Shown piece by piece: positions 10,040-51,176 of a stretch of 64,000 nt of DNA. Positions within the stretch are counted from its first letter, which is position 1, and every line of letters begins with the position of its first letter. The DNA is from Runella sp. CRIBMP (lineage in GTDB: Bacteria > Bacteroidota > Bacteroidia > Cytophagales > Spirosomataceae). A program made the position numbers and the translations under genes. The stretch lies in NCBI RefSeq assembly GCF_009905605.1, contig NZ_JAAAKZ010000003.1, positions 310,001 through 374,000 on the forward strand. Reading direction: 5' to 3'. The notes under the pieces are model-generated. The model saw nothing but the letters and a program-made list of their open reading frames with translations, was not told the origin of the DNA and made no database searches.

Positions 10040-10054
10040 GCAAATAGTTTGCCA
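10040..10054 (-). promoter_or_regulatory. Sigma-54-like promoter of the PadR-1/permease 1 operon
   Basis: Minus strand reads TGGCAAACTATTTGC, which is TGGCA[A]-N5-TTGC with both invariant GG and GC doublets at correct spacing. Predicted start about 10028, some 17 nt before the PadR ATG. Operon C has the same element with a single difference. Confidence 0.7.
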
Positions 10055-10119
10055 TTGAAAAGTTTTGTTGTTAAATAATTGATTGTTAGGGATTTATTGA
10101 AAAGAAGCAATTGTGCTGA

Positions 10120-10157
10120 TTGTCCATAATCGGACAACTTTGTACGCTTTAGGACAA
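10120..10157 (-). promoter_or_regulatory. Paired dyad operator/enhancer, operon A
   Basis: Two six-base dyads with six-base spacers: TTGTCC-N6-GGACAA (10120-10137) and TTGTAC-N6-GGACAA (10140-10157), centres 20 bp apart. The proximal centre is about 75 bp upstream of the sigma-54-like element. The altered half-site (GTAC) is in the distal copy, as in the other loci. Likely binding sites for the NtrC-type regulator at 33522. Confidence 0.65.
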
Positions 10158-10268
10158 AGAGACTTTGTGCTCTTTGTGAATTCTTAGTGTTCTTTGTGGT
10201 TAAAAAAATCGACGTATAGGTAAAGGTAGATAACCAAACACTTTTTAAAAAAACAAATCATTGATTCT

Positions 10269-11117
10269 ATGAAACAAATCACACAATACCTCCTATGCGG
10301 ATTGCTGCTTTCTATGGGGGCTTTATCTGTACAGGCTCAAAAAACTCCCGAAGACAAGGCAGGCTGGAAACTCGGCTCTCAGGCCTACTCGTTTCGGTTG
10401 TTTACGTTTGCCGAAGCCATTCGCAAAATAGACAGCTGCGGTCTCAAATACGTAGAAGCATTCCCAGGGCAAACCATCGGCGGCGGGTTGGAAGGAAAAA
10501 TGGATTTCAGCATGGATGCTGCTACGCGTACGGCGGTGAAGAAACTGGTAAAAGACAAAGGATTGACGATTGTAGCATACGGGGTGGTCAACCCCAAAAC
10601 CGATGCCGAATGGACTACTTTGTTTGAATTTGCCAAAGACATGGGTGTTTTGAACATCAACACCGAGCCTTCGCCCGCCCAAATGCCGTTGGTGCGGAAA
10701 TTGGCTGACCAATACAAGATAAATGTGGCCTTGCACAACCACCCCAAGCCTTCACGTTATTGGCATCCTGATACCGTCTTGGCCGCGATTGGCGGCAGCA
10801 AATATGTAGGCTCCTGTTCCGACATTGGCCACTGGGTACGCTCTGGTCTTGACCCCGTCGAATGTCTTAAGAAACTGAACGGGCATGTATTGGGAATGCA
10901 CTTTAAAGACGTGAAAAAAGACACGCCCGAAGGTCGCTATCACGACGTAGTTTGGGGCACAGGCGACTGTAAAGTAGAAGCGGTGATTGCTGAAATGAAA
11001 CGCCAAAACTTTAAAGGCCCTATTTCGGTTGAATACGAATATCACTGGGAAAACAACGGCCCCGAAATCGCCGAAAGTGTGAAGAATTTCCGGGCAATCT
11101 ATAGCCGAACGAAATAA
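10269..11117 (+). CDS. Secreted sugar phosphate isomerase/epimerase-like protein (AP endonuclease 2 / xylose isomerase-like TIM barrel)
   Basis: 282 residues. Signal peptide at about 1-24 (ending SVQAQ). The rest is a TIM barrel of the AP_endonuc_2 superfamily: it opens KLGSQAYSFRLFTFAEAI, with a conserved E in KYVEAFPG. Candidate metal ligands are E133 (NTEP), H158 (LHNHPKP), D185 (CSDIGHW), H211 (GMHFKD) and an acidic residue in SVEYEYH. Periplasmic members occur widely in Bacteroidota and are thought to act on sugars or inositols; the substrate is not predictable here. It is divergent from operon A, with 257 bp between start codons that contain the operon A control elements. Confidence 0.85.
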   Translation: MKQITQYLLCGLLLSMGALSVQAQKTPEDKAGWKLGSQAYSFRLFTFAEAIRKIDSCGLKYVEAFPGQTIGGGLEGKMDFSMDAATRTAVKKLVKDKGLTIVAYGVVNPKTDAEWTTLFEFAKDMGVLNINTEPSPAQMPLVRKLADQYKINVALHNHPKPSRYWHPDTVLAAIGGSKYVGSCSDIGHWVRSGLDPVECLKKLNGHVLGMHFKDVKKDTPEGRYHDVVWGTGDCKVEAVIAEMKRQNFKGPISVEYEYHWENNGPEIAESVKNFRAIYSRTK

Positions 11118-11125
11118 ACTCCGTA

Positions 11126-11168
11126 GGGCAGGCCTTGCGTCTGCCCCCTGCCTTCGCCTGCCTTTTTT
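11126..11168 (+). terminator. GC-rich hairpin with T-run after the isomerase gene
   Basis: GGGCAG (11126-11131) pairs with CTGCCC (11141-11146). An overlapping option pairs GGCAGG with CCTGCC at 11157-11162, which is followed directly by six T. Several alternative pairings make this look like a REP-like palindrome that serves as a terminator. The remaining 200 bp up to the next gene show nothing I can name. Confidence 0.45.
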
Positions 11169-11371
11169 ATAGTGTAGTGACTTACTTCTTCCGATAGATA
11201 TTTTCAGCCCTTATCATTTATATTTTCGAGTTTTATTGGAGAGGAAAGTGATTTAGGATTCAGATAGTCAGTGCCTTACGGGCTCTGGCGTTGCCGAATA
11301 CTAAGTTTAGGAAGTAGTGTGATTTTTATTGATGGGTTTACACTAAATTTGATAAAAACTCATTTCTCACT

Positions 11372-12851: not shown

Positions 12852-15251
12852 TTACTTCACCTTCAAACTCTTCACGGGATTCATTAGCGCGGCTTTGATG
12901 CTGTGGAAACTCACCGTTAGGAGGGTGATAAAGATAGATAAGGTGCCTGCTAGCCCAATCATCCACCACTCCATTTGAATATGATACGCAAAATCCTGCA
13001 ACCATTGGTTCATAGCATACCAAGCCAAGGGCGACGCAACTACGATGGCAGCGGCTACCAATTTGAGAAAGTCCTTGGAAAGCAGTGAAATAATACCCGC
13101 CACCGAAGCACCGAGAACTTTACGAATACCTATTTCTTGAGTGCGTTGTGTCATGGTAAACAACACTAATCCGTACAGGCCAAGGCAACTGATCAAAATG
13201 GCGATGCCCGCAAAAACGACGGAAACCCGAAAAATCAACGTTTCGGTTTGGTAGAATTTAGCCAATTGCTCGTCTAAGTATTCGTAGGTAAATACCTCAT
13301 TCGGATAGCGTTTTTGCCACGATTGCTCAATAAACCGCAGTGTTTGTTCGGGATGCTGCCCCACAATCTGAACACCAACTTTTTTGTACCGGGCCGTTTG
13401 AGTGGCAATAAAACAGGGCTGAATTGTTTCGTGGAGCGAGCGCAGGTGAAAATCTTTGACTACGCCAACGATGGGTAAAGCCACTGGCGAGAGATAAGTT
13501 TCGAGTTTGCGTCCCAGAATCTGCTTCGAGTCTTTGATATTCAGCTTTTTGAGTAGTGCTTCATTGACCAAATATTCCCGAATGGTATCGCTCTCGGTGA
13601 TATTTCGACCCGCAGCCAAGTGCAAATCAAAAGTGCTCAGATAGTCAGAATCAGCCAATCGTTCCCGAATTGGGAATGTCTCCCAAGTGCTCTTTCCCCC
13701 AAATTTGAACGAACCGCCGTTCATGACGGCCGCCGCGGGTGGTCGGTAACAGGCGCTTATAGATTGTACATAAGGCGATTGGCGCAGGTCATTTTTGAAT
13801 GCTGACAAGGCTGTTTTGGACGGGTTGGGCAAATTGATAATTACAATATTATTTTTACTAAAACCTAAATCAGAGTCCTGCAAATAACGAACTTGGTGGG
13901 TGACGACGAGGGTTCCCACCAAAAGTGCCTGACAAATTCCGAACTGAAACATAATTAGGAGTTTTCGCAACGATAAATTTTTGCGCGACTTAACCAACGG
14001 GCCTTTTAGCGCTGCCCACGGACTAAAACCCGACAAAACAAAAGCAGGATAGCCGCCCGCCAATACCGTAACAAGCACCACCAGCAACAGCAAAAAACCA
14101 ATGGCTTGGGGAGTAAATTGAAACATCGGGCCATTGGGTAGCCATTGATTGAATATTGGAATACAAATCAAGGCAAAAATGACCGCAAATACAGCCGAGA
14201 TTAGCACAATGAGGGCTGTTTCGAGTAAAAATTGTCCTCTAATCTGACGTTTGGTACTACCCAGCGTTTTACGAATTCCGATTTCTTTGCCACGGCTAAG
14301 CGCTTGAGCCGTGGCCAGATTGATAAAATTGATACAGGCAATCAAAACCAAAAACAAGCCAACAGCGCCCAATGACCAAAGCAAAGAAGGCCTGACGGTT
14401 GGGCTCCCTCCGATGCGTTGTACATCAAAATGAACATCGGCCAATGGTTGTATATGGAATTGAAAAACGGAGGCATTTTCGGCAAAATGTTTTTTGGAAA
14501 GTGCAGGAAGTGCGGCTTCCAGTCTTGCGGCAGAAAGCGGATTTTTGAGGGTAAGATAAACTCGGTCAGTTGAATTCAACGACCACCAATCATTGACGTC
14601 AAAATCGGGAATAAGGCGCGGCAACGTAGCTGCGGAAATAAACAGTTGAATATCGGTGTTGGTTGTTTTGGGAGGGTCAGCCAAAACGCCGGTTATTTTG
14701 GCTTCGGTCAAATTGTCTAAATTGATGGTCCGACCTAGAGGGTCTAAGGTGCCGAAATATTTTTTTGCCAACGATTGCGTAATCACCACCGTGTTGGGTT
14801 TGCGAAGCGCGGTTTTTTGGTTGCCTTTGAGCCATTGATAATCCAAAATATCAAACAATTCGCTTTCAACAAGGGCGGTGGTATTGAGTTCCAAAAAGCG
14901 TTTTGGGGCCGATTGATTGGGGAGTAGTACGCTGACCGTCAGTTCACGGTTCATTTTTAAGTAGGCGGCCTGCTCTATTTGTGGAAAATCAGCCCGAAAG
15001 GCCCTGGCCATAGGCAATGGTGCCTCGGGATAGTATTCTACCGAACCATCTTCCAGATGCAAGTCGGTGACGATTCGATAGATACGGTTAAATTTTTGAT
15101 GGTGTCGGTCGGTACTCAGATGGTGACTTATAAACAAAAAAATAAGTAAACCACTTGCCATACCAACCGACAGACCAAGGATGTTCAGCGTTGTATATAC
15201 CCGCTTGGCGCGGAGATTTCGCAGGGTTGTTTCAAGGTAGTTCTTTAGCAT
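12852..15251 (-). CDS. FtsX/MacB-type ABC permease (permease 2)
   Basis: 799 residues, no prefix domain. First helix about 21-43 (TLNILGLSVGMASGLLIFLFI), first periplasmic domain to about 285, three helices between about 285 and 410, second helix near 435, second periplasmic domain to about 670, last three helices to the C-terminus, which ends PVKSLKVK. It is among the more divergent copies: its first FtsX block reads LSRGKEIGIRKTLGS. It is the third and last gene of operon B, 100 bp after permease 3, with no promoter or dyad visible in that gap. An inner-membrane exporter or substrate-handling subunit that needs a separate ATPase. Confidence 0.9.
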   Translation of the reverse strand: MLKNYLETTLRNLRAKRVYTTLNILGLSVGMASGLLIFLFISHHLSTDRHHQKFNRIYRIVTDLHLEDGSVEYYPEAPLPMARAFRADFPQIEQAAYLKMNRELTVSVLLPNQSAPKRFLELNTTALVESELFDILDYQWLKGNQKTALRKPNTVVITQSLAKKYFGTLDPLGRTINLDNLTEAKITGVLADPPKTTNTDIQLFISAATLPRLIPDFDVNDWWSLNSTDRVYLTLKNPLSAARLEAALPALSKKHFAENASVFQFHIQPLADVHFDVQRIGGSPTVRPSLLWSLGAVGLFLVLIACINFINLATAQALSRGKEIGIRKTLGSTKRQIRGQFLLETALIVLISAVFAVIFALICIPIFNQWLPNGPMFQFTPQAIGFLLLLVVLVTVLAGGYPAFVLSGFSPWAALKGPLVKSRKNLSLRKLLIMFQFGICQALLVGTLVVTHQVRYLQDSDLGFSKNNIVIINLPNPSKTALSAFKNDLRQSPYVQSISACYRPPAAAVMNGGSFKFGGKSTWETFPIRERLADSDYLSTFDLHLAAGRNITESDTIREYLVNEALLKKLNIKDSKQILGRKLETYLSPVALPIVGVVKDFHLRSLHETIQPCFIATQTARYKKVGVQIVGQHPEQTLRFIEQSWQKRYPNEVFTYEYLDEQLAKFYQTETLIFRVSVVFAGIAILISCLGLYGLVLFTMTQRTQEIGIRKVLGASVAGIISLLSKDFLKLVAAAIVVASPLAWYAMNQWLQDFAYHIQMEWWMIGLAGTLSIFITLLTVSFHSIKAALMNPVKSLKVK

Positions 15252-15351
15252 TCCTCTGATTTGTAATGAATTGCGGCTACAAGGTACAGAAGAAAGAAAA
15301 GAATTGACGGTTAAAAAATGTTAAGATTTATTTAGTGGACGACCAGCGAGT

Positions 15352-17721
15352 TTATTCTACTTTCAAACTCTTCACGGGATTCATCAAGGCGGCTTTGATG
15401 CTTTGAAAACTCACCGTCAGGAGGGCAATTAAGATGGCTAAGGCGCCAGAGAGTGCGTAAACCCACCATTCTACCGTGGTTTTATACGCAAAATTTTGCA
15501 GCCACTTATCCATGAGCCATGAAGCCAACGGCGAAGCAATGACGATGGAAATGAGTACTAATTTGAGAAAATCTCTTGACAATAGCGCCGTAACACTCAA
15601 CACCGATGCCCCCAATACTTTACGAACCCCGATTTCTTTGGTGCGTTGTTCGGCCGTAAAGGTAGCGAGGCCAAACAGCCCGAGGCAAGAAATAAAAATG
15701 GCCAAAAAGGCAAAGTAATTTGTCAATGAGCCGATGGTCATTTCGCTGCGGTATAGATTCTGAAACTGCTGATCGGCAAACTGATACGTAAACGGAAATT
15801 TTGGATTCAGTTCACGCCACGTTTTTTCAATGCTTGCCAGCGCTTGTTTGGTCTGGCCTGGCTGAGTTCGGATAATGATATTTTTGTTGGATGCATCACG
15901 GCTGAGTTTCACAATCATTGGTTCGATGGCTACGTGCATTGAATTTTGATGAAAATCTTCCAAGACACCCACGATGATTCCTGGTTTGTTCCACAACGTC
16001 AGTGGCTTCCCGATGGGGTCTTTATAGCCAATCCGGCGGGCAGCAGCCTCGTTAATCAAATAACTCACGGAATCCATACCAAAGTCTTTCCCAAAATCGC
16101 GCCCTTTCAACTTTACATTCAAGGTTTTGGAAAAATCATAATCAACGGTAGAAAACTGAAAACTGACGCTGGAATTGGGGTCTTTGGTGGGCCATTTTAC
16201 ATTACTAGTACTGCCAAAGGTATTAGTAGGGGTACCATCCATGAAGGTAATGCTCTGAATACCTTGGCTTTGTAGGAGTTGCTGTTTAAATGTGTCATAC
16301 TTTTTAGGTAAGTCTCCCTCCGACGATAAATAAATCAAATTCTCCCGGTTGTAGCCTAAATTTTTGGTTTGAATGAAGTCGAGTTGCCGATACACAACAA
16401 TGGTTCCGATGATGAGCAACATTGATAGCACAAACTGAAACACCACCAACCCTTGACGGAATAACCGGGCCCCCGCCCCGAAGGTGACGGAGCCTTTGAG
16501 TACTCGGATGGGATTCAGCGATGATAAAAACAGCGCTGGATAGCTTCCTGCCACGATTCCAGTCAGGAAAATCATGCCCAGCAGTGTTCCCCAAAATGAG
16601 AGTTGGTGAAAAGGCAACTGAATATTTTTTTCGGTCAATGTATTAAAAGTAGGTAATAGGAGGCCCGATAAAGTGACCCCGACAATCAGCGCCATGGCCG
16701 TCAGGAGTAATGCTTCGCCCACAAACTGACCAATCAATATCCCCCGTACGGCTCCCACTACTTTGCGTACGCCTACTTCGCGGGCGCGTTTGAGTGACCG
16801 GGCCGTGGCAAGGTTCATAAAATTGATACAGGCAATCAACAGGATAAAAACGGCCACAATGCCAAACAACCGAACGTACTCAATACGCCCTCCATCCTGA
16901 TATCCATCTTTGAAGTTTGAATAGAGATAGGCGTCTTGGTAAGGCTGAAGAAACAATTGAATATCAACGTTTTGTTTGCCTAAATGGGGGTTGTATTTCT
17001 TCAGAAATGACTTCATTTTGGCCTCTACTACTTCGGCTTTGGCATCGGGGCGTAGCTGGATTCGGGTGGCGGTGGCATTGTTGCCCCAGTCTTTCATCCA
17101 TTCGTTTCGCCTGATAAAATCATCCCATGTGAGCAGGAAATCATATTTTTCGGAGCTATGTTGGGGCAAATCTTCAAATACGGCCGTGACCAAATAATCG
17201 GCTTTGTTATCAATACGAATACTCTTGCCGACGGCTGCTTGCGGGCTTCCGAAATAATTCTGCGCCATTTTTTGCGAAATAGCAATGTTTGCGGGTCCAG
17301 TGAGGGCGGTTTGGACCGAACCTTCAAGCAGTGGTATACTAAACATTTTAAACCAATCTGCCCCTGCAAAACGACCCTTTTCTTTGTTGAGTTTTTCACC
17401 GACCGAAAAAGTATGGATACTTTCCCATGATAAACCCGCTGCATAGACGATTTCGGGAAACTGTTTCTTGAGTTCGTCGGCCAGTAAGGCAGGAGTACTA
17501 GGGGCGGCATCAACTTTGCCGTCGTAGTATTGGCGTTCCATTACGTGGTACAACTGCAGTCCATTGGCATGGAAGGCATCCATTTTCAGTTCGTCCTGCA
17601 CCCAAAGCAGTATGAGTAGACTACAGGCCATCCCAAGCGCAAGACCGAGAATGTTGATGGCCGAAAAAGTGCGGTTGTGGGCGATGTTTCGCCAGGCAAT
17701 TTTAAAATAGTTACGTATCAT
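15352..17721 (-). CDS. FtsX/MacB-type ABC permease (permease 3)
   Basis: 789 residues. Its N-terminus (MACSLLILLWVQDELKMDAFH) and first periplasmic domain are very close to permease 8 (MACSLMIMLWVQDETAMDAFH). The two also share the later stretch YSNFKDGYQDGGRIEYVR / YSNWDSGKQNGGRIDYVR, so they are the closest paralogues in the array. Coupling regions are LATARSLKRAREVGVRK and EQRTKEIGVRKVLGAS. It is the middle gene of operon B, 75 bp after permease 4. Because permease 8 belongs to the operon that carries its own ATPase and adaptor, permease 3 may use the same ATPase. That is inference. Confidence 0.9.
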   Translation of the reverse strand: MIRNYFKIAWRNIAHNRTFSAINILGLALGMACSLLILLWVQDELKMDAFHANGLQLYHVMERQYYDGKVDAAPSTPALLADELKKQFPEIVYAAGLSWESIHTFSVGEKLNKEKGRFAGADWFKMFSIPLLEGSVQTALTGPANIAISQKMAQNYFGSPQAAVGKSIRIDNKADYLVTAVFEDLPQHSSEKYDFLLTWDDFIRRNEWMKDWGNNATATRIQLRPDAKAEVVEAKMKSFLKKYNPHLGKQNVDIQLFLQPYQDAYLYSNFKDGYQDGGRIEYVRLFGIVAVFILLIACINFMNLATARSLKRAREVGVRKVVGAVRGILIGQFVGEALLLTAMALIVGVTLSGLLLPTFNTLTEKNIQLPFHQLSFWGTLLGMIFLTGIVAGSYPALFLSSLNPIRVLKGSVTFGAGARLFRQGLVVFQFVLSMLLIIGTIVVYRQLDFIQTKNLGYNRENLIYLSSEGDLPKKYDTFKQQLLQSQGIQSITFMDGTPTNTFGSTSNVKWPTKDPNSSVSFQFSTVDYDFSKTLNVKLKGRDFGKDFGMDSVSYLINEAAARRIGYKDPIGKPLTLWNKPGIIVGVLEDFHQNSMHVAIEPMIVKLSRDASNKNIIIRTQPGQTKQALASIEKTWRELNPKFPFTYQFADQQFQNLYRSEMTIGSLTNYFAFLAIFISCLGLFGLATFTAEQRTKEIGVRKVLGASVLSVTALLSRDFLKLVLISIVIASPLASWLMDKWLQNFAYKTTVEWWVYALSGALAILIALLTVSFQSIKAALMNPVKSLKVE

Positions 17722-17796
17722 GGCTGTGTGTTTTGTTGAAATACATTATAACTGAAATGGGAAAGAAAAACGTAGCGTACATTTCTTAACTAAATT

Positions 17797-20178
17797 TTAT
17801 TCGGTTTTTAAACTTTCCACAGGATTGTTCAAGGCGGCTTTGATGGCTTGAAAACTGACCGAAAATAGCGCAATCCCCAACGCGACAATGGCCGCCAATG
17901 CCAGATACCACCACTTGATTTCGGTACGATAAGCAAAGGTCTGGAGTAATTTATGTCCTAGCCAGTAGGAAATGGGTAGCCCGATAAGTAGCGCAAGACC
18001 AACGAGTTTTAAGAAATCTCCCGAAAGCATGGTGGCAATGCTACTGATGCTCGCGCCCAGTACTTTCCGGACCCCAATTTCTTTGGTGCGCTGTTTGGCC
18101 ACGAGCGAAATCAACCCAAAAATCCCCGCACACGCAATCAAAATGGCAAGAATCGTTACAAAACTGGTCATGCGCCAGATGTTGTCGATGGCTTGGTAAG
18201 ATTTGGCCACTTCATCGCTGAGGTAAAAATGATTCAATGTTCGTCTGGCTGGAATCTTTTTAAAACGCGCTTCAAGATGGCTTATTAGGTCTTTGCCTTT
18301 GGATTCGTCGGTGAGGCGTACACTTAAAAAGCTACTGAGTTGCTGTTTGCCCGCGTACCAATGTAGGAGCGGCTCAACGTCATCTTTGAGACTTTGGTAA
18401 TGAAAATTTTTGGTCACACCAATCACCGTATAAATTTGGTCGTTGTTGTTTTGACGCAAGCGTTTGCCTACGGCGCTCGTCCAACCGAATGCTTTCATGG
18501 CCGCTTCGTTGATGACAACGGAGTGATTGACGGAGTCGGCCGAATTGTCCAAAAATCCACGACCTTCAATAAACGGAATCTTAAACGTTTCGAAGTAGCC
18601 AGCGGTACCGCTTACGTGACGTAAGATGACCTTTTTTGCCTCGTTGCCTTCGGGGAAATAGTTATTGAAGTTTTGCCAATACTGCACGGGCGTAAGTTCG
18701 GAAGCCGTAAACGACACCACGTGAGGGTTTTGGCGCAGTGCGTCCAATAACGCCCTTCCTTCCGAAAGCGCGGCATTTTCGTTGCGATAGGCCAAATCGG
18801 TGTTAAAAACCAGCACGTTGTTTTTGTCGTAACCAACATCGGCGGTTTTCATGAAATTGATTTGCTGCCGCAGCCCAATGGTTGCCACAATGAGCACGAC
18901 GGCTAGGGCAAATTGCAAGACAATGAGGCTGTTTTGGCGCAGGCGGCCCCGGCGCGGGTCAGCGGAAATTTTTCCTTTTACGGCCTCGGCCGTTTTCAGG
19001 GCCATGAGGTAATAAGCCGGATACGTGCCAGCAATGAAGGCAATCAACATTGAAATGCCGAAAACGGTTAAAATGGTGGGGTAATCATTGCCGAACGAAA
19101 TATCCAATTGCATACGCCCGTCGCGGAGCTGATTGAAAGACGGGATCAGAAAATAAATGGCAAAAAGCATGGCCAAAAACGAGGAAATCAACATCACAAT
19201 GCCCGATTCGGTCCAGAATTGATTGAAAATGATGCGTTTGCTCGCTCCTGCCACCTGCTTTACGGCCACCTCTTTGATACGGGGCAATGCTGATGCCATC
19301 GTGAGGTTGATGAGGTTAATGCTGATGATTAACAACAGAAAAATTGCAATAGCAATGGCTCCATAAATCAGCCCTTTGAACGTAGGGTTTTGATCATGAA
19401 TAAAATTTTTGAACGCGCTTAGTCGTAAGACTTGGTTTCGGGATTCGGGTGCAAAATGGGTTTTTACCAATTGGGGCAACTTAGCCTCTAGCGCGTCTTT
19501 GTTGGCTCCTTTTCTGAGCAGCACAAACACGGGCGCAAAAGTATTGTACCAGTCGGCATTGCTCTTAAATCCGGGGAGAGAAGTAAGCGTGCTTGCGGGC
19601 ATCAATACATCAAACTGCTGCGAAGAATTGGCGGGGAGTTTGGCCAGTACACCCGAAATCTTGAATTGAACGGTATCGTCGAGGGTAACTGTTTTGCCTA
19701 CGGGGTCGCTATCTCCAAATAGATTTTGGGCTATCTTTTCGCTTACTATCAGGGCGTTTGGGTCTTTGAGCGCGGTGGCGGCGTTGCCGTATTTGAGCGG
19801 AAAGCTAAACACCTGAAAGAAAGTCGAGTCTACAAAAACAGTGCTCTCTTGTACATCTTTGGTGCCGTAATGAATCCACGGCCGGTACCACGTCTGAACG
19901 TGCGTGCCTGTTTCGATTTCGGGATAATCCTTCAGCAATTGCTCCAAAATCGGGTAGACGGTTTGCCCGTATTTTTGGCCGTTGGAAGATTCGGTTTGAA
20001 CGTAATAAATACGATCACTTTTTTCGTGAAATGTATCAAACGTGAGGCATTTTTGGGCAAAAAGCACCAAAACCACCACACAAGCCATGCCCACCGACAT
20101 TCCCACGATGTTGATGCCCGTAAAGAGGAGATTTTTCCAAAGCGTGCGTAGCGCGATTTTTAGGTAATTACGTAGCAT
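17797..20178 (-). CDS. FtsX/MacB-type ABC permease (permease 4)
   Basis: 793 residues, first gene of operon B. It is the most divergent copy: the first helix has GMACVVVLVLFAQKCLTFDTFH, and the first coupling region is ASALPRIKEVAVKQVAGAS instead of the common TARxxxRAxEVGVRK. The second FtsX block (KQRTKEIGVRKVLGAS) and the ending NPVESLKTE are conventional. The altered first coupling helix could change which ATPase it contacts. Transcription would begin at the sigma-54-like element near 20214-20228, 36 bp upstream of the start codon. Confidence 0.9.
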   Translation of the reverse strand: MLRNYLKIALRTLWKNLLFTGINIVGMSVGMACVVVLVLFAQKCLTFDTFHEKSDRIYYVQTESSNGQKYGQTVYPILEQLLKDYPEIETGTHVQTWYRPWIHYGTKDVQESTVFVDSTFFQVFSFPLKYGNAATALKDPNALIVSEKIAQNLFGDSDPVGKTVTLDDTVQFKISGVLAKLPANSSQQFDVLMPASTLTSLPGFKSNADWYNTFAPVFVLLRKGANKDALEAKLPQLVKTHFAPESRNQVLRLSAFKNFIHDQNPTFKGLIYGAIAIAIFLLLIISINLINLTMASALPRIKEVAVKQVAGASKRIIFNQFWTESGIVMLISSFLAMLFAIYFLIPSFNQLRDGRMQLDISFGNDYPTILTVFGISMLIAFIAGTYPAYYLMALKTAEAVKGKISADPRRGRLRQNSLIVLQFALAVVLIVATIGLRQQINFMKTADVGYDKNNVLVFNTDLAYRNENAALSEGRALLDALRQNPHVVSFTASELTPVQYWQNFNNYFPEGNEAKKVILRHVSGTAGYFETFKIPFIEGRGFLDNSADSVNHSVVINEAAMKAFGWTSAVGKRLRQNNNDQIYTVIGVTKNFHYQSLKDDVEPLLHWYAGKQQLSSFLSVRLTDESKGKDLISHLEARFKKIPARRTLNHFYLSDEVAKSYQAIDNIWRMTSFVTILAILIACAGIFGLISLVAKQRTKEIGVRKVLGASISSIATMLSGDFLKLVGLALLIGLPISYWLGHKLLQTFAYRTEIKWWYLALAAIVALGIALFSVSFQAIKAALNNPVESLKTE

Positions 20179-20213
20179 AAATCGAAAGGTTGATAATACG
20201 TACTTTCTTTACC

Positions 20214-20228
20214 TCACACTTCATGCCA
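20214..20228 (-). promoter_or_regulatory. Weak sigma-54-like promoter of operon B
   Basis: Minus strand TGGCAT-N5-GTGA. The -24 box is good but the -12 box lacks the usual GC. It is supported mainly by position: 60 bp downstream of a strong dyad and about 24 nt from predicted start to ATG, like the other operons. Confidence 0.4.
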
Positions 20229-20275
20229 CGCAAAAATAGGCTTGATTTTGAGTGGATTACGGTTTTTTTGAGGGA

Positions 20276-20318
20276 GTCAATGTCCATTTTCGGACATTGA
20301 CTGTTCGGAGATGAACAC
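20276..20318 (-). promoter_or_regulatory. Paired dyad operator/enhancer, operon B
   Basis: The proximal dyad is a perfect inverted repeat with 10-bp arms (GTCAATGTCC / GGACATTGAC, 20276-20301) around a 6-bp centre, containing TGTCC-N6-GGACA. Exactly 21 bp further, a degenerate copy CTGTTC-N6-GAACAC lies at 20301-20318. Same architecture as at the other loci. Confidence 0.65.
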
Positions 20319-20405: not shown

Positions 20406-23057
20406 TTACTCCGTCTTCAACGATTTCACCGGATTACCCAATGCGGCTCTAATGGATTGAAAACTAACGGTGAAAAAAGCAATCAGAATGGATAAGGCGG
20501 CAGCTATCGCAAACGTCCACGCGCTGATGTCAATGCGGTAAGGATAATTTTGCAACCATTCTTTGATGGCATAATAAGCCGCAGGAAAAGCGAAAATAAA
20601 GGAGAAACTAACGAGTTTCAGAAAGTCGGCCGAAAGCAATGTTGTGATGCTCGCCACCGAAGCGCCCAGTACTTTACGAATTCCGATTTCTTTGGTGCGC
20701 CGCTCGGCCGAAAGCGTAGCCAGTCCAAACAGACCGATGCAGGAAATAAAAATGGTCAGAATCGCCCCGAAAAGCATGATTTGCTTCCATTTGGCTTCCG
20801 CTTCGTACCGTTTGATGTTTTCTTCATCCATGAATTTATATTCATAAGGGTTGATGGGGAACAGCTTTTTATAGGTTTTTTCTACGTGTCCCAAACTGGC
20901 GGTCTCGGTACCAGGTTTAATCTTGATGAATACCTTGCCATATAGATTGCCGGGTTTCATAGTAAACAATTGCGGTTTGATTTCATAGTTCAATGGTTCA
21001 AAATGATGGTCTTTTACGACCCCGATAACGGTATATTTTTCGTCATCGTTGTACCAAAAATTGACAACTTGTCCCAACGGATTTTTCCAACCGACTTTTT
21101 TGGCAAACGTTTCATTAATCAAAATGGATTGGGTAGAGTCTGAAGGAAAATTAGCCGAGAAATTGCGCCCTTTGATGATGGGAATTTGTAACAGTGGAAA
21201 ATAGGTAGCATCGACAGTTTCATAGGCAAAACTCTGCTGAGTTTCTCCGTTTACTTTTGCCACGGTTCCCCAACTACCGCCGTTTTTTGGCGCTACATCC
21301 ACAATATGCGGGCTTTTTAATAATTCTTCTTTTAATAGTTTTGCCTCGTTGCGGCTCATTTGGGATTTCTCAATGGTGATTACGTTTTTGTCGTTATAGC
21401 CCAAGTCTTTGTTGGTCAGATAGTTAAATTGGGAATAAATCGTCAAAGTGGCAATAATCAGAAACGAAGCCAGTGAAAATTGCAAAACGACCAACCCCTT
21501 TTGAAGGTAGTTTTTGCCTGAAAGATTAAAGCGGCTGTAGAGGGTTTGCACGGGACTATAATTGGATAAAACCAACGCGGGATAAAAACCAGCCAATAAA
21601 CCCGTGGCGATAAATAGGCCGATATAACCCAATACCAATTCGAAATCAAACAGATACGAAAACGAAAGTGCTTTGTTGGAAAGCTCGTTGAAGATTGGTA
21701 GTACCAGTTGCAGCAAGGCCAGGGCAAAGGCAAAAGCGGCAAAACACAGAATGAACGACTCACCTAAAAATTGCATAATCAACTGCCCTCGGCCGCCGCC
21801 CACTACTTTACGGACGCCAATTTCTTTGGCACGTTTCAGCGAACGTGCCACGGTCAAATTCACGAAATTAATGCAGGCAATCAATAAAATGAAAAGCGCA
21901 ATGCCGCTCAGGATGTACGAAAACATGGGATTGCTGCTGTCTTGCAAACCGTTTTGAGCTGGTAAGTCTTTGCTCAAGTGCATATCTGTAAAAGGCTGAA
22001 GGGCATAAACAACTTTGTTTTTATCCCCGTACTTCTCGGCAATCATCTTAATGGCTTCCTTGGCGTCGGCCTGATAAATCCGGTTCATGGTTGCTTCAAC
22101 CTTTTTTAGGTCGGCATTGGGTTGAAGCACAACAAAGGTGTTCTGGAAAATATTGAACCAGTTTTCGTTACTCTCTATTTCTTCCTTACTCACCACGTTA
22201 GGGAAAAGCATATCAAACTTGATAGAAGAGTTTTGGGGGCAATTTTTAGAAACACCGGTCACGGTATAAGGTATAAATTCACTTCCGTCGCCATAAGAAT
22301 TCTTTACGAGGAGGGTTTTTCCTAAAGCATCCGTTGTTCCGAAATGTTGTTCGGCCATTTTTTCCGAAATCACCACTGATTTAGGCGCTTTGAGTGCTGT
22401 GGTGGGATTGCCACTTAGCAGAGGGAACGAGAAAATGGAGAAGAAACTGCTGTCAGCCACAAAAGATTCATAGCTTTTGATTTCCGTTCCTTTCTTAATA
22501 TCGCTGCGTTCGCCTTTATAACGTACAAAAGCGCGTATTTCGGGAACACCAGCGCCGAACTTAGGGCCTTGAAAGTGCCCAGTATTTCCAGTAAGACTTT
22601 CTACGCCCTCGGGCGTAATGGATTTGCTCGTTACCCGATAAATGTGAGGGTTATTGGCGTGAAATTGGTCAAAACTGACCTCATCTTTGGTGTATAGCAT
22701 GATCAGCATGGCGGCGGCCAAGCCTATACTCAAACCAATAACATTGATGGCTGAATACACCTTGTTGTGGGCCAAGGTGCGCAGGGTGATGGTTAGATAA
22801 TTACGAAACATAGAGGGCTGAATTAGGGATGGCTGATGGTATTCATTTTTGGGTTGACGTTGTTTTACAAAAGGGGGAAGCACCGAGACGACATTGAGCA
22901 CATAGCGCCAAGTTGCCTGTCGTTTTCCTGCTCGCCGATACCAATAGGCGTATAGTTCATCCAAATCACCTTCGACTTCTTCGAGGGTTTCGGCGGGATG
23001 AAACCACCGCAAAACGCGTCGGGGCCACTGTGGAGGATGGAGTTTATTTGCTTTCAT
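20406..23057 (-). CDS. FtsX/MacB-type ABC permease with N-terminal prefix domain (permease 5)
   Basis: 883 residues. Residues 1-85 are the prefix domain (PPQWPRRVLRWFHPAETLEEVEGDLDELYAYW...), sharing the pattern R/KxLxWFxxPxxLEEVxGDLxE with permease 1. After it the usual two PCD-FtsX units follow, starting at MFRNYLTITLRTLAHNKVYSAIN. Coupling regions are LTVARSLKRAKEIGVRK and ERRTKEIGIRKVLGAS; end NPVKSLKTE. The start codon overlaps the PadR-2 stop codon by four bases (ATGA), indicating translational coupling. A regulator-permease pair is thus strictly linked twice in this window. Confidence 0.9.
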   Translation of the reverse strand: MKANKLHPPQWPRRVLRWFHPAETLEEVEGDLDELYAYWYRRAGKRQATWRYVLNVVSVLPPFVKQRQPKNEYHQPSLIQPSMFRNYLTITLRTLAHNKVYSAINVIGLSIGLAAAMLIMLYTKDEVSFDQFHANNPHIYRVTSKSITPEGVESLTGNTGHFQGPKFGAGVPEIRAFVRYKGERSDIKKGTEIKSYESFVADSSFFSIFSFPLLSGNPTTALKAPKSVVISEKMAEQHFGTTDALGKTLLVKNSYGDGSEFIPYTVTGVSKNCPQNSSIKFDMLFPNVVSKEEIESNENWFNIFQNTFVVLQPNADLKKVEATMNRIYQADAKEAIKMIAEKYGDKNKVVYALQPFTDMHLSKDLPAQNGLQDSSNPMFSYILSGIALFILLIACINFVNLTVARSLKRAKEIGVRKVVGGGRGQLIMQFLGESFILCFAAFAFALALLQLVLPIFNELSNKALSFSYLFDFELVLGYIGLFIATGLLAGFYPALVLSNYSPVQTLYSRFNLSGKNYLQKGLVVLQFSLASFLIIATLTIYSQFNYLTNKDLGYNDKNVITIEKSQMSRNEAKLLKEELLKSPHIVDVAPKNGGSWGTVAKVNGETQQSFAYETVDATYFPLLQIPIIKGRNFSANFPSDSTQSILINETFAKKVGWKNPLGQVVNFWYNDDEKYTVIGVVKDHHFEPLNYEIKPQLFTMKPGNLYGKVFIKIKPGTETASLGHVEKTYKKLFPINPYEYKFMDEENIKRYEAEAKWKQIMLFGAILTIFISCIGLFGLATLSAERRTKEIGIRKVLGASVASITTLLSADFLKLVSFSFIFAFPAAYYAIKEWLQNYPYRIDISAWTFAIAAALSILIAFFTVSFQSIRAALGNPVKSLKTE

Positions 23058-23392
23058 ATTCCAGTAAGCCTAAGTTTGGTGGGAGGCATCATTTGCCAGA
23101 GTTCGTGGCGGAGTTGTTGAATTTCTTGCAAAGCACGATTTCCTAAAGCGGTTGCCTGGAATATACGTTTGCGCCTTCCGCCGCGCTCGTTGGTGGCCCC
23201 GCCGAGTTGAGAACTCACAAACCCTTTTTCTTCCAGTCGAATAAGCGTATTGTGTACCGTGCCAAAAGTTACAACCCGACCTGTATGCTCCTCCAACGCC
23301 TGACTGACCGTAACGCCGTAGGCTTCGCCGTCAAGGATGGCTACCATGAGCAAAACCACTTCTTCAAATTCACCTAAATAAGTGCGGCGCAT
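23054..23392 (-). CDS. PadR family transcriptional regulator (PadR-2)
   Basis: 112 residues, winged-helix PadR domain: LGEFEEVVLLMVAILDGEAYGVTVSQ, recognition region VHNTLIRLEEKGFVSSQLG, wing TNERGGRRKRIFQ. It is about as long as PadR-1 and clearly paralogous. As first gene of operon C it lies 31 bp from a sigma-54-like element. It is likely a local repressor or ligand sensor for its coupled permease, on top of the sigma-54 activation; that dual control is inference. Confidence 0.9.
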   Translation of the reverse strand: MRRTYLGEFEEVVLLMVAILDGEAYGVTVSQALEEHTGRVVTFGTVHNTLIRLEEKGFVSSQLGGATNERGGRRKRIFQATALGNRALQEIQQLRHELWQMMPPTKLRLTGI

Positions 23393-23422
23393 ACCTACAA
23401 TGATTAGTTTCTATTTTATCGT

Positions 23423-23437
23423 ACAAATAGTTTGCCA
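23423..23437 (-). promoter_or_regulatory. Sigma-54-like promoter of operon C
   Basis: Minus strand TGGCAAACTATTTGT: 14 of 15 bases identical to the operon A element. The final base is T in place of C, so the -12 GC doublet is GT. Predicted start about 23411, 19 nt before the PadR-2 ATG. Confidence 0.65.
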
Positions 23438-23443
23438 AGACAT

Positions 23444-23500: not shown

Positions 23501-23539
23501 CTGTCCGTTTACGGACAAACATTGTCCCGCAGTGGACAA
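23501..23539 (-). promoter_or_regulatory. Paired dyad operator/enhancer, operon C
   Basis: CTGTCC-N6-GGACAA (23501-23518) and TTGTCC-N6-GGACAA (23522-23539), centres 21 bp apart. Both copies are near-perfect, the best pair in the window. The proximal centre is about 72 bp upstream of the -24 box. Confidence 0.7.
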
Positions 23540-23601: not shown

Positions 23602-25983
23602 TTACTCCGTTTTTAAACTCTTTACTGGATTCATCAACGCCGCCTTAATGGCTTGAAAACTGACGGTTAGGAGTGTAATGACTAACGCCCCAAAACCTGC
23701 CACTGCAAAAATCCATCCTGAAATCTCAGTGCGATAGGTGTATTTTTGTAACCATTCTTGTAAAAAATAATAGGCAATGGGTGCGGAAATAACGCAAGAA
23801 ATGATGACCAAAATGACAAAATCTTTGGAGAGCATTTGCCACAGATTGGTCACCGATGCACCCAATACTTTGCGAATGCCGATTTCTTTGGTACGTTGTT
23901 CGGCGATAAACGAGGCCAGTCCAAAGATTCCCAAGCAACTGATAAAAATGGCAAGAATGGCAAAAAAAGTGACTAATTGGCCAATACGTTCTTCATTGTC
24001 GAATTTTTTGGCATATTCTTCATCCACAAACTGATATTCAAAAGGTTGGGAAGGATTAAACTTTTTGAAAACCGTTTCTACCTCGCTCAAGGCTTTGCCA
24101 GCATTTGTCAAAGGGTTGATTTTGGCAATCATAACCCCGCCAGGCTCCGTGGTCAAATGATAAATTGAGGGTTTTACTTGTTGAAAAGGAGATTGTACAA
24201 TCATGTCTTTCACCACGCCGATTACTTTGTTGGGAGTTCCGTACCACTTAATGGTCTCGCCTACTGGATTCTTCAAACCCATAAATTTTACGGCCGCTTC
24301 GTTCAAAATCAACCCCGAGGAGTCGGTAGAAAATTCTTTGGAGAAATCACGCCCTTCTTTAAACGACCAGCCGATGGTTTTGCCATAGTCAAACGAAATG
24401 GCTATTGTCTGAAAATCAACAGATAGATTCGGGTCTTTGTCTTTCCATTCAATCGTACTGGTGCTTGAATAATTCTCCGTGGGGGGGCTTCCCGCTTCGG
24501 CCATGTCGATAATTGCCCCTGATTTTGTCAATTCTTTTTTTACGGCGTCAAAATGGGTATGAATTTCGGAAGTGTACATGGGCAAAGTCACTAAACCATT
24601 GCTGTTATAACCCATCGGACGATTTTGGGCAAATTTTACCTGACGAAAAACAATGATGGTACCGATAATCAACGTCACCGAAACCGTAAATTGTATCGTT
24701 ACTAGCACCTGACGTGGTAAAGCTGCCCAACGGCCTGCGCGGAAGGTACCCTTTAAGATTTTTAGGGGCTGAAACGAAGACAGATAAAAAGCGGGATAGC
24801 TACCCGACACCAGTCCGCAGAGCAAACTGAAACCTAAGCCTACCATCCAGAATGACAGATTATTCCATGGGAGCGCCATGGTTTTGTCGGCCACATTGTT
24901 GAAAAAAGGTAGCATGAGCTGCGCGAAAAGCAAGGCAAACCCAAAGGAAAAGAACACCATTAAGAGGGATTCAAAAAAGAACTGGTAGACAATTTGGGCA
25001 CGAACCGAGCCTACTGCTTTTCGAATGCCTACTTCTTTGGCTCGTTTTTCGGAGCGTGCCGTACTCAAATTCATGAAGTTGATGCAGGCTAACAACAGCA
25101 CGAATAGCCCACTGATGCCAAACAACCACACATATTGGATTTTCCCGCCAACATTTATGCCATTCTTAAAGTCAGAATACAAATGCCATTTGCTCATGGG
25201 ATGCAGAAAAACCTCTGGTTTCTTCTTGGCCAATTCTTTGCTGACTTTGTTGAGTTTGGCGTCTTTAATTTTGTGAGAAACGGTGGTTATATCTGCGTTT
25301 GGAATGAGTTGAGCATAAATATGAAACGCATTGGGCCGCCATGGGTCGGCCATTGTTCTAACCCACTCATTGTTGTTATAATATAATTGCCACGGAGCTA
25401 TAAATGTTATGTCATGAAATTCAGAATTATGAGGCAAATCTTCATAAACACCCGTTACTTTCACATCCGTTTGGTTATCCATTTTCATGATTTTATCCAA
25501 AGGGTCGGCTTCCCCAAAAAATGCCTTGGCTACAGATTCAGACAGTAGAATAGCGTTGGGGTTTTTGAGGCCGTTTCTCGTCCCTTTCAGCATTTTCAAC
25601 GTTAACATTTCGGTAACTTGAGGTTCGAAATAAGCACCTTTCTTACTGAATTTTTTCTCGCCGTAAGACAAAATACTGTATGCATCTTTCGCCACGGTCA
25701 CGTGCTTAAAATCGCTCCCGTAACTTTTACGGAGTTCTTCGGCCAAAGGAAGCGGTGTATTAGGCCACGTTTGCACTTCACCGTTGTTGGTCACGTGTTG
25801 CATGACCCGCACAATTTTTTCGTAGTTTTGGTGATATTTGTTGTACGATAATTCATCCCACATCCAAAGCCCGATAAGTATTGCCACGGCCATCCCAGCC
25901 GATAATCCCACAATGTTGATGAAAGAATACACCTTGTTTTTGACAAGATTTCGGATAGCGATTTTTAGGTAGTTACGTAACAT
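23602..25983 (-). CDS. FtsX/MacB-type ABC permease (permease 6)
   Basis: 793 residues. First helix AGMAVAILIGLWMWDELSYNKYH, first periplasmic domain, FtsX block with LSTARSEKRAKEVGIRKAVGS, second unit with EQRTKEIGIRKVLGASVTNLWQMLSKDF, end NPVKSLKTE. It is the second gene of operon D, 80 bp after permease 7, followed by the 23444-23479 terminator. Its periplasmic domains carry the LKNPNAILLSESVAKAFFG and NPVGETIKWYG motifs seen in slightly different form in every copy. Substrate unknown. Confidence 0.9.
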   Translation of the reverse strand: MLRNYLKIAIRNLVKNKVYSFINIVGLSAGMAVAILIGLWMWDELSYNKYHQNYEKIVRVMQHVTNNGEVQTWPNTPLPLAEELRKSYGSDFKHVTVAKDAYSILSYGEKKFSKKGAYFEPQVTEMLTLKMLKGTRNGLKNPNAILLSESVAKAFFGEADPLDKIMKMDNQTDVKVTGVYEDLPHNSEFHDITFIAPWQLYYNNNEWVRTMADPWRPNAFHIYAQLIPNADITTVSHKIKDAKLNKVSKELAKKKPEVFLHPMSKWHLYSDFKNGINVGGKIQYVWLFGISGLFVLLLACINFMNLSTARSEKRAKEVGIRKAVGSVRAQIVYQFFFESLLMVFFSFGFALLFAQLMLPFFNNVADKTMALPWNNLSFWMVGLGFSLLCGLVSGSYPAFYLSSFQPLKILKGTFRAGRWAALPRQVLVTIQFTVSVTLIIGTIIVFRQVKFAQNRPMGYNSNGLVTLPMYTSEIHTHFDAVKKELTKSGAIIDMAEAGSPPTENYSSTSTIEWKDKDPNLSVDFQTIAISFDYGKTIGWSFKEGRDFSKEFSTDSSGLILNEAAVKFMGLKNPVGETIKWYGTPNKVIGVVKDMIVQSPFQQVKPSIYHLTTEPGGVMIAKINPLTNAGKALSEVETVFKKFNPSQPFEYQFVDEEYAKKFDNEERIGQLVTFFAILAIFISCLGIFGLASFIAEQRTKEIGIRKVLGASVTNLWQMLSKDFVILVIISCVISAPIAYYFLQEWLQKYTYRTEISGWIFAVAGFGALVITLLTVSFQAIKAALMNPVKSLKTE

Positions 25984-26063
25984 AGCTTTTTCATAATTTT
26001 AAGGTTTTAGGAATTGGGCTATTCTTGTTTTTTTTCTAAAGCCTAACCCCTAAATCCTTGAAT

Positions 26064-28549: not shown

Positions 28550-28589
28550 GTTCCAATAAAGTTCAAAAAGCTGTTTTCTGTAAGTTGGT

Positions 28590-33288: not shown

Positions 33289-33341
33289 GAAACATAAGTT
33301 ATTGGTTATGAATGAATTGGTATTGCCTGCGAATTTTAAAA

Positions 33342-33380
33342 TTGTCCGAAAACGGACATGGGTTGTACGCCATTGGACAA
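33342..33380. promoter_or_regulatory. Shared paired dyad between divergent operons E and F
   Basis: TTGTCC-N6-GGACAT (33342-33359) and TTGTAC-N6-GGACAA (33363-33380), centres 21 bp apart. The pair is almost centred between the operon E -24 box (33288) and the response-regulator -24 box (33433), at about 62 bp from each. The GTAC half-site orientation matches the minus-strand operon. Confidence 0.7.
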
Positions 33381-33432
33381 GAATAAAAAGTGTACTTTAT
33401 CTTAATGGTTGATAATGAGGTATTTTGTATTT

Positions 33433-33447
33433 TGGCACTCTTATTGG
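33433..33447 (+). promoter_or_regulatory. Sigma-54-like promoter of the response regulator/kinase operon F
   Basis: TGGCAC-N5-TTGG: perfect -24 box, -12 box TTGG in place of TTGC (the same variant as the divergent promoter). Predicted start about 33459, 62 nt before the ATG. Suggests autoregulation. Confidence 0.6.
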
Positions 33448-33521
33448 GTAAATTTATACATACCGTCAAAAGAGTTGTATTTTACCAAAATTACTAATTA
33501 GCTCATTTACAAATATTTCAA

Positions 33522-50018: not shown

Positions 50019-50212
50019 TTTGAGGAAGATGTCGGATGCCCGACATTTGGTGTAAAGTAATAAGTGAAAGTTTGCATTACAAAACTTTTCGGTGCAAAGT
50101 TCGTTAAAAGAATGGCTTTTCCCGTATATCCAATGAATTGTTTTTAAACACATTAGCAGCGGCAAAGCTCCGTAATCAGAACTTAATACTTACTTTTTTG
50201 TTAGAAATAAAT

Positions 50213-50866
50213 ATGAAGACAATCATCAAAAAACTCATTTTCGGCACGTTGACGTTGTCATCACTTAGCTCGTGCGGACAGTCAGCCAAAAAGATTGAAC
50301 AAATGGAAGAAAAATCAAAAACCCTCACGGGGCTGGCCACCGCCACGTTTGGTACGGGGTGTTTCTGGTGTACCGAAGCGGTGTATCAGGAAATGGAAGG
50401 CGTTGAATCGGTAGTATCGGGGTATTCGGGTGGATTTGTGGAAAACCCGACCTACGAACAAGTCTGTGGAAAAGCTACGGGCCATGCCGAGTGCGTAGAA
50501 ATCAAATACGACCCCAAAAAAGTGACCTATGCTGAACTGTTGGAGGTGTTTTTCCGGGTGCATGACCCAACCACCAAAGACCGTCAGGGCAACGACGTAG
50601 GGCCGCAGTATCGTTCGGTGATTTTTTACCACGACGCAGATCAAAAAGCCTTGGCCGAAAAAGCCATCAAAGAGCTCAATGCCTCAGGTGCTTTTAGCAA
50701 GCCGATTGTGACGGAAGTATCCAAAGCCGAGAAGTTTTACGTAGCCGAAGCATATCACCAAAATTTTTTTGCCAACAACCCCAACCAAGGCTATTGCGCA
50801 TTTGTGGTAGCGCCCAAAGTGGATAAGTTCAAGAAGGTATTTAAGGAGAAGTTGAAAGCGCATTAA
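50213..50866 (+). CDS. msrA: Peptide-methionine (S)-S-oxide reductase MsrA, lipoprotein
   Basis: 217 residues from ATG 50213. The lipoprotein signal ends LSSC with Cys21. The MsrA core has GTGCFWCTEAVYQEMEGV with catalytic Cys50, SGYSGG, and THAECVEI-like GHAECVEIKYDP, then HDPTTKDRQGNDVGPQYRS and AEAYHQNFF. It repairs oxidised methionine in exported proteins, here anchored in an envelope membrane. An upstream frame to 50138 adds 25 non-family residues and overlaps the thiL leader. Confidence 0.93.
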   Translation: MKTIIKKLIFGTLTLSSLSSCGQSAKKIEQMEEKSKTLTGLATATFGTGCFWCTEAVYQEMEGVESVVSGYSGGFVENPTYEQVCGKATGHAECVEIKYDPKKVTYAELLEVFFRVHDPTTKDRQGNDVGPQYRSVIFYHDADQKALAEKAIKELNASGAFSKPIVTEVSKAEKFYVAEAYHQNFFANNPNQGYCAFVVAPKVDKFKKVFKEKLKAH

Positions 50867-50894
50867 TTAGCCTCTCTTAACGTGATTTCACAAG

Positions 50895-50914
50895 AAGCCC
50901 GATTCGTCGGGCTT
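50895..50914 (+). terminator. Terminator after msrA
   Basis: AAGCCCGA / TCGGGCTT with TTCG loop followed by a T-run. Textbook intrinsic terminator. The 50915-51070 stretch that follows contains nothing I can identify. Confidence 0.8.
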
Positions 50915-51070
50915 TTTTTGTGAAAAATGCGCATTCTCCAACGACACCCCTCCCGCTACCGCCTAAATAATGGCATAGAAGAGCAAAATATCGCAATAGC
51001 TCTCAACCAAAAAAAACCAAAATAAGTAACTTTACGGCTTAAAAAATCGCACAGATGCGGGGTTTTGGCT

Positions 51071-51109
51071 TCGTCCGCAGGCGTACAAATATTGTCCGTT
51101 TTCGGACGA
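51071..51109 (+). promoter_or_regulatory. Paired dyad operator/enhancer, operon G
   Basis: Distal TCGTCC-N6-GTACAA (51071-51088) and proximal TTGTCC-N6-GGACGA (51092-51109), centres 21 bp apart. The GTAC variant is again in the distal copy, so orientation relative to the promoter is kept although the gene is on the other strand. The proximal centre is about 62 bp upstream of the -24 box. Confidence 0.65.
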
Positions 51110-51161
51110 TTTTGTGAAGATAAAATAAATCAATGTGCTGATTTTCAGTAATATGATAAGT

Positions 51162-51176
51162 TGGCACAACTCGTGC
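51162..51176 (+). promoter_or_regulatory. Sigma-54-like promoter of operon G
   Basis: TGGCAC-N5-GTGC, preceded by T: -24 box perfect, -12 box keeps GC (GTGC for TTGC). Predicted start about 51188, 30 nt before the ATPase ATG. The best all-round match in the window with operon A. Confidence 0.7.

Follow-up and report, generated by a model that had tools for sequence, protein, structure and literature searches.

Paired polar dyads and sigma-54-type promoters mark a probable regulon of duplicated MacB/FtsX permeases in Runella sp. CRIBMP

The DNA described here is a 64-kb stretch of the Runella sp. CRIBMP genome (C23:310001-374000; genome of 7.13 Mb in 55 contigs), called the window below, in which genes for ABC-type permeases, their candidate export partners and a two-component pair are preceded by paired TGTCC-N6-GGACA dyads. 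We consider it very probable, reading from sequence, that a single regulon of sigma-54 and one enhancer-binding protein controls an array of 21 duplicated permeases together with candidate common parts. From the sites, their polarity, spacing, conservation, gene context and co-occurrence, all of them seen in the sequence, we infer binding, phosphorylation, sigma-54 dependence and positive autoregulation as follows. The sensor kinase (34889) would phosphorylate the NtrC-type response regulator (33522), which would bind paired dyads with their centres some 85-110 bp before the predicted start sites, cooperatively at a strong proximal and a weak distal dyad, and would loop to sigma-54 polymerase at -24/-12 promoters. 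This would give joint expression of the 21 permeases, the PadR regulators, an adaptor, two stand-alone ATPases, TolC and the regulator itself.

Paired dyads and their promoters

A sequence-only reading of the window had claimed two dyads in each of six intergenic regions, with centres 20-21 bp apart and five exact cores far above chance, and both claims are borne out. The pairs start at 10120, 20280, 23501, 28590, 33342 and 51071; five of the six loci keep the coordinates first given, and the second starts at 20280 (20280-20318), not at 20276. The exact cores are at 10121, 20281, 23502, 23523 and 33343, compared to a mean of 0.05 in dinucleotide shuffles of the window, none of which (0/100) reaches five. 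With one mismatch allowed, 8 sites are found versus 1.4 expected, all 8 inside the named intergenic regions. Genome-wide there are 12 exact cores, of which 9 fall in a single 71-kb stretch (C23:272349-343358; binomial probability of this clustering, 2e-16), and 4 matches to the reversed pattern. The shuffles, the one-mismatch count and the reversed-pattern count led us to reject a chance origin of the dyads.

In the 204 kb that surround the window we found ten pairs spanning 89 kb and reaching 38 kb past the window, so that the six loci are real but are only part of the set; four more lie upstream (C23 272348, 274900, 290589 and 303282). All ten are intergenic, in a region where intergenic stretches >90 bp make up 6.5% of the sequence. 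A profile built from these ten pairs (R1) found no pair below E 0.2 outside the cluster in this genome. The off-cluster exact cores C29:4232 and C44:214246 were set aside as chance matches, having no partner dyad at 20-22 bp (scores of -21 or lower) and being absent from the R1 matches up to E 10. The pair at 28590-28628 is weak, scoring 0.2 for the distal and 9.3 for the proximal dyad; we retained it because of its position, its profile score (E 1.6e-5, for a locus that is itself a training site of the profile) and its stronger likely counterparts in L078 (17.4 and 12.8) and L077 (15.4).

In the ten pairs the dyad centres are 20-22 bp apart, and each pair has a polarity that the sequence-only reading overlooked: read in gene direction, the proximal dyad outscores the distal one in 10/10. 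The proximal dyad is near-perfect. In the weak distal dyad the outer half is mostly good (TGTCC or TGTTC) and the inner half is changed (GAACA, GTACA, GCACA and others); the one exact distal dyad is at 23522. In the held-out sites described below, strand was assigned by the profile trained on the ten pairs, with gene direction as an independent check.

A -24/-12-type element follows at +50..95 in 9/10 of these sites (3/10 in the mirrored window) and at +64..86 in 8/10 (mirrored, 1/10). In nine, its -24 GG stands 50, 60-64 or 70-76 bp away, counted from the centre of the proximal dyad; the tenth site, 290589, carries TTGGTACGGATTTGGAA, which the promoter pattern missed. The element and its distance of 50-75 bp had been anticipated, as a TGGCA/TTGC type; the -12 box is GC in only 2 of the 7 window elements and GA, GT, GG or similar in the others.

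Held-out sites give the same picture. R1 was run on nine relatives of our choosing, where it found 68 distinct sites at E 0.1. The element lies at +64..86 from the pair centre in 36/47 of these, compared to 4/47 in the mirrored window, and in 12/21 compared to 2/21 of the weaker sites added later, in total 48/68 against 6/68; the background rate of such a match is 2-7%. A strict form is present in 25/47 sites and 2/47 mirrored windows (background, 0.3-0.4%). Measured from the proximal dyad, the 36 elements lie at 60-64 bp (17), 70-76 bp (18) or 57 bp (1), three of them with a second match elsewhere, and the two preferred distances (about 62 or 73 bp) differ by roughly one helical turn.

Genes headed by the sites

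All 12 permeases tested have two MacB periplasmic-core (MacB_PCD) and two FtsX domains and no ATPase domain in Pfam. By profile there are 21 in the 204 kb, all within the cluster, and at least 22 genome-wide at E 1e-80, with 26 of 41 candidates scored; the count of 21 and the held-out gene classes below use profile A2, since a first permease profile had taken in the outer-membrane protein C23:308956. A dyad pair stands at the head of the same-strand runs that contain 20 of the 21, and the remaining one (C23:265736) follows after a 448-bp gap, beyond our 420-bp run limit. Further genes in pair-headed runs are the adaptor/ATPase 1 and ATPase 2/TolC genes, two PadR regulators and the regulator/kinase pair. 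The predicted operons agree with those first proposed, with pairs at the head of the permease, PadR, adaptor, ATPase/TolC and regulator runs.

The two PadR-adjacent permeases in the window have an N-terminal extension, so that the MacB core begins at residue 102 (20409-23057) and 116 (7049-9718). The first matches “permease prefix domain 2” with 73.4 bits (cut-off, 35); the second was not in that scan. This prefix may link permease and PadR.

Among the 68 held-out sites, 50 head the expected classes (permease 27, PadR 15, adaptor 4, ATPase 3, regulator 1) and 7 do so in the opposite direction. The adaptor occurs once per genome in four of these genomes and ATPase 2 once per genome in three. 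Sites are dispersed over the chromosome in G028, G015 and G016. Other Runella have six off-cluster sites followed by an element (weak in some), a PadR-like gene start (identified by eye) and a long open reading frame (ORF), which in G011 is a listed permease match. The profile scan of genome and relatives, a check proposed with the sequence-only reading, supports one cluster in this genome and, in the relatives, the gene classes of the regulon.

PadR proteins bind dyads, and PadR genes head two runs of the cluster as well as the 15 held-out sites noted above, so the dyads might be operators of PadR-family regulators or of another repressor rather than enhancer sites. We rejected this as improbable: 53/68 held-out sites head no PadR gene, and in a Bacteroidota metagenome-assembled genome, L094 (regulator 48% identical), a pair of dyads 22 bp apart separates permease and regulator, yet the 14 kb seen contain no PadR-like ORF of ≥100 aa. 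The helical spacing and the distance from the -24 box, moreover, fit an enhancer and not a repressor sitting over a promoter. The context maps of L094 and of G008, below, were drawn with the first permease profile, not A2.

Conservation and co-occurrence

Footprinting, also proposed earlier, found the half-sites conserved in 11 Runella, our own included. In the adaptor-regulator intergenic region the invariant columns number 12/16 and 12/16 in the dyads and 14/17 and 14/17 in the promoters, compared to 145/375 positions over the whole alignment. The centre of the strong dyad is AAAA in some and TTTT in others, and the flanks have diverged around the conserved half-sites; the altered half of the distal dyad at this locus, TTGTACG, is invariant in all 11. 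Units of upstream region, PadR-like gene and permease do recur around the genomes of relatives, as would be expected of a repeat copied without regulatory function. Conservation of half-sites between diverging centres and flanks, agreement with gene direction (50 vs 7) and the five window sites vs 0.05 expected leave that explanation, or chance similarity, with practically no weight against a regulon.

Across 39 genomes, our own included, sites (E 0.01) occur in 26, a regulator orthologue (≥49% identity) in 25 and permeases (E 1e-80; counts per genome saturate at 26 and mean at least 26 there) in 25, and each pair of these features overlaps in 24. In 194 genomes of the order, a set that partly overlaps the 39, the regulator (E 1e-125) is found in 53/55 genomes with sites and 45/139 without (p 1e-17); the two site-only genomes are about the number expected by chance at E 0.01. 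At E 1e-180 the regulator is found in 23 genomes, 21 of them with sites.

The Runella genome G008 (4.9 Mb, 99% complete) appears to be a natural knock-out. Its regulator search gives nothing above 42%, and it has no permease at E 1e-80. The single significant pair (L241:4040-4640) lies upstream of lgt, where the window has ATPase 2/TolC; lgt is 82% identical, the next gene 79%, and an alignment of the region of upstream activating sequence (UAS) and promoter gives 69%. TolC has left a 96-bp remnant (70% identical), no ATPase 2 remnant was seen, and the -24 TGG reads TGT. We take this to be a fossil UAS with a decayed promoter in a Runella that lacks the regulon.

The regulator and the case against it

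The protein at 33522, named as presumed activator by the sequence-only reading, has the receiver aspartate, the AAA+ domain and the Fis helix-turn-helix (HTH), and is 99% identical to its Runella aurantiaca counterpart. Its presence tracks the sites across genomes, which supports this assignment. The genome has two rpoN genes, and sigma-54 -24/-12 promoters are functional in another member of the Bacteroidota, Flavobacterium psychrophilum, according to an excerpt of PMC9723704. In our rpoN listing (C1:264151, C1:265246; C19:28048), one rpoN directly adjoins another sigma-54 activator.

Several observations weigh against a single regulon of this kind. Eighteen of the 68 held-out sites head other or unrecognised genes or none; two of these have one unrecognised gene and then a permease, and one is the G008 fossil. 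Polarity, present in 50/57 pairs (own included), is partly circular in the held-out sites because the profile was trained on our own sites and itself sets the strand. Four of the 39 genomes are exceptions: in G008 the site stands alone; G013 combines sites with 14 permeases, and its best regulator match (53%) is partial and contains stops, so that we did not count it as an orthologue; G019, with both regulator and sites, lacks a permease at E 1e-80; and in G035 a regulator (49%) and 2 permeases occur with no site at E 0.01. Across the order, 45/98 regulator-bearing genomes have no site at E 0.01 in a search whose stricter filters lose weak matches, so it is probable that the more divergent regulators have few sites or bind different ones. 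Three further points, on untraced activators, the activator loop and missing promoter elements, bear on two alternatives.

The first is that another enhancer-binding protein acts at the sites and 33522 controls something else. The genome encodes seven strong sigma-54 activators, 33522 included; a paralogue, C1:483836, has 45% identity and a similar HTH (57% of 42 positions), and two others, C12:325882 and C4:77571, fell below the search threshold with the query used and were not traced in relatives. The remaining four of the six were traced, and none tracks the sites (classes in relatives were assigned by identity and coverage). At E 1e-60, site-bearing G018 (16 site matches at E 1) has no matches other than the 33522 orthologue and a single 40% protein, which belongs to the C54:178355 class; this class is also present in genomes without sites (G022, G026, G032 and G037), and the C1:483836, C53:50036 and C1:264790 classes have no match in G018 at that threshold. 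The class of the 45% paralogue is likewise absent from site-bearing G007 and G020, and we rejected that paralogue as the activator. Given also the co-occurrence of sites, regulator and permeases, we regard a different activator as unlikely, if somewhat less so than the PadR operators.

The second alternative is that the regulator acts through sigma-70-type promoters, or as a repressor, and that the -24/-12 matches are incidental. The -12 box is often not GC; 20/68 held-out sites have no -24/-12-type element in the tested window; and the sigma-54-contacting loop is GAFTDA here and G[AS][FY]TDA in 29/29 orthologues extracted, not GAFTGA (HTH extraction gave no sequence from L033, L037, L038 and L096). 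Against this stand the fixed spacing, the enrichment over mirrored windows, the conservation of both elements in 11 Runella, the two rpoN genes and the loss of the -24 GG in the G008 fossil promoter, and we judge it a shade less probable even than the PadR operators. Control by 33522 through sigma-54 thus stays our preferred reading.

Relation to known systems

In NtrC-family enhancers, two tandem dyads about two helical turns apart place the activator upstream of a -24/-12 promoter. The arrangement here is alike, while the sequence, the strong/weak polarity and the number of operons per array differ. The nearest specific NCBIfam families are ADOP, DarB/C/D, acidobacterial PadR and PrsR, and all scores are under cut-off.

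The regulatory mechanism that we propose is of a known kind, for which the excerpted text of Haft et al. 2006 (PMC1569441) provides the nearest precedent, PrsK/PrsR. Both systems have a kinase and a receiver-AAA-Fis response regulator, and in PrsK/PrsR an upstream motif, sometimes repeated, averages 63 nt before the -24/-12 element and precedes numerous dispersed paralogues with a link to export, which phylogenetic profiling brought to light. There, according to the same excerpt, the motif ends TTTACA and the targets are PEP-CTERM proteins of Proteobacteria; here the site is TGTCC-N6-GGACA and the targets are ABC permeases of Cytophagales. The regulator scores 375.7 against PrsR (TIGR02915), under the cut-off of 502.6.

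The permeases resemble ADOP (TIGR03434) in their duplicated MacB_PCD/FtsX chains, large paralogous arrays and a PadR (TIGR03433) beside the permease, and ADOP is their full-length best match; the four tested scored 270.8-332.7 bits, all under the cut-off of 622.3, and PadR-2 scored 30.9 against TIGR03433 (cut-off, 101.8). To our knowledge no sigma-54 control has been described for ADOP permeases. The permeases, adaptor and ATPases also match the DarB, DarC and DarD profiles, and the permease profile matches solved MacB. All scores against the Dar profiles are under cut-off. Compared with MacA-MacB-TolC and DarBCD-type pumps, the ATPase here is separate from the permease, and the regulon has 21 permeases to two ATPases and one adaptor.

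The sequence-only reading knew of no description of this regulon, and likewise we found none of the regulon, the site, the polarity or the link to duplicated orphan permeases in the full text of open-licence papers. We know of no partner or condition for such permeases. A common activator-dependent switch suggests candidate partners, namely the co-regulated ATPases, adaptor and channel, and makes the kinase a handle on the inducing signal; the dyad-promoter signature lets such regulons be read across an order of bacteria. Duplicated orphan permeases can number in the tens per genome: two Dyadobacter strains have 28 and 33 copies of them “of unknown function”, according to an excerpt of PMC11573002.

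More weakly, we infer from dosage and co-regulation (one adaptor, two ATPases and one TolC vs 21 permeases) that the permeases share these parts as a common motor. As to the inducing condition, an envelope or antimicrobial-peptide stress response is our guess. A bolder and rather doubtful extension is a combinatorial exporter, in which ATPase-less orphan permeases would plug into the co-regulated ATPase/adaptor/TolC and the cargo range would grow by duplication of UAS-promoter-permease units, and in which the candidate RNA described below would set how much adaptor there is per permease, either as a decoy or by regulating in trans.

Candidate small RNA

Downstream of the off-cluster core C55:21000, on the - strand, come TTGGCACTAAGTTTGAA and, after about another 65-75 nt, a strong terminator; the stretch from the core to the neighbouring gene on this side contains no ORF of ≥80 aa. 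Of the distal dyad just the outer half is left (score, -7.4), and the profile match has E 0.2. This locus probably makes a sigma-54-driven RNA of ~100 nt whose 5' half is similar to the leader of the adaptor mRNA in sister species. Counting our own, 5/23 genomes have the conserved unit, the others being G012, G010, G002 and G003; it was not found in G004, G006, G007 and G009. The folding z of -4.3 is mostly owed to the terminator. The 5' half scores 26.5, 26.0 and 22.0 against the adaptor leaders of R. zeae, Runella sp. MFBS21 and R. limosa, which none of 500 mononucleotide shuffles reaches; the G007 leader is less clear (21.0; 2/500 reach it), and those of our own genome and of G003 are not convincing (19 and 22 of 500). 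An Rfam identity was rejected, the sole match up to E 1 being ncr1015 (E 0.31; 24.5 bits vs a cut-off of 60). A leader motif ACAGCC common to the regulon transcripts was also rejected: it is present in 4/11 of our own but, in held-out sites, in 3/68 sense vs 6/68 antisense.

Feature coordinates and minor observations

Table 1. Sites, promoters and genes of the proposed regulon (window coordinates unless a contig is given)
Feature	Position	Strand	Remarks
Paired-dyad UAS, PadR-1/permease	10120..10157	-	Reads towards - strand operon
Sigma-54-type -24/-12 element ATGGCAAACTATTTGCT	10039..10055	-	75 bp from proximal dyad centre
PadR-family regulator 1	9682..10011	-	Pfam PF03551
Duplicated MacB/FtsX permease, 890 aa	7049..9718	-	
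UAS pair of three-permease run	20280..20318	-	
-24/-12 element GTGGCATGAAGTGTGAG	20213..20229	-	61 bp from proximal dyad centre
Three duplicated MacB/FtsX permeases	12855..20178	-	12855-15251, 15355-17721, 17800-20178
UAS pair of PadR-2/permease	23501..23539	-	Both dyads exact
-24/-12 element TTGGCAAACTATTTGTA	23422..23438	-	73 bp from proximal dyad centre
PadR-family regulator 2 and permease	20409..23392	-	PadR 23057-23392, permease 20409-23057
UAS pair of two permeases	28590..28628	-	Weak in this genome
-24/-12 element CTGGCGAACAATTTGTC	28534..28550	-	50 bp from proximal dyad centre
Two permeases	23605..28487	-	23605-25983, 26067-28487
UAS pair common to two divergent promoters	33342..33380	.	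Polarity towards adaptor operon (-)
-24/-12 element CCGGCACGGGTATTGGC	33273..33289	-	Adaptor/ATPase-1/permease operon
-24/-12 element TTGGCACTCTTATTGGG	33432..33448	+	Regulator/kinase operon
HlyD-type adaptor, ATPase 1, permease	28645..33156	-	31858-33156, 31088-31762, 28645-31041
NtrC-type response regulator	33522..34892	+	Receiver, AAA+ sigma-54 activation domain (GAFTDA loop), Fis HTH; proposed activator
PAS/HATPase sensor histidine kinase	34889..36217	+	Proposed partner of regulator
UAS pair of ATPase-2/TolC	51071..51109	+	
-24/-12 element TTGGCACAACTCGTGCA	51161..51177	+	62 bp from proximal dyad centre
ATPase 2 and TolC-type outer-membrane factor	51218..53238	+	51218-51883, 51868-53238
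Candidate ~100-nt RNA	C55 about 20841-20946 (L022:7842-7947)	-	Dyad, promoter, terminator

In G030, seven exact cores lie 152-154 bp apart (C16:187122-188055) in a genome with no close regulator, which suggests a tandem repeat array of no relation to the regulon. A five-permease run ends (L015:4962-7823) in genes for PA14-OmpA, PQQ/BamB-like beta-propeller and ankyrin-like proteins, which are possible envelope partners or passengers.

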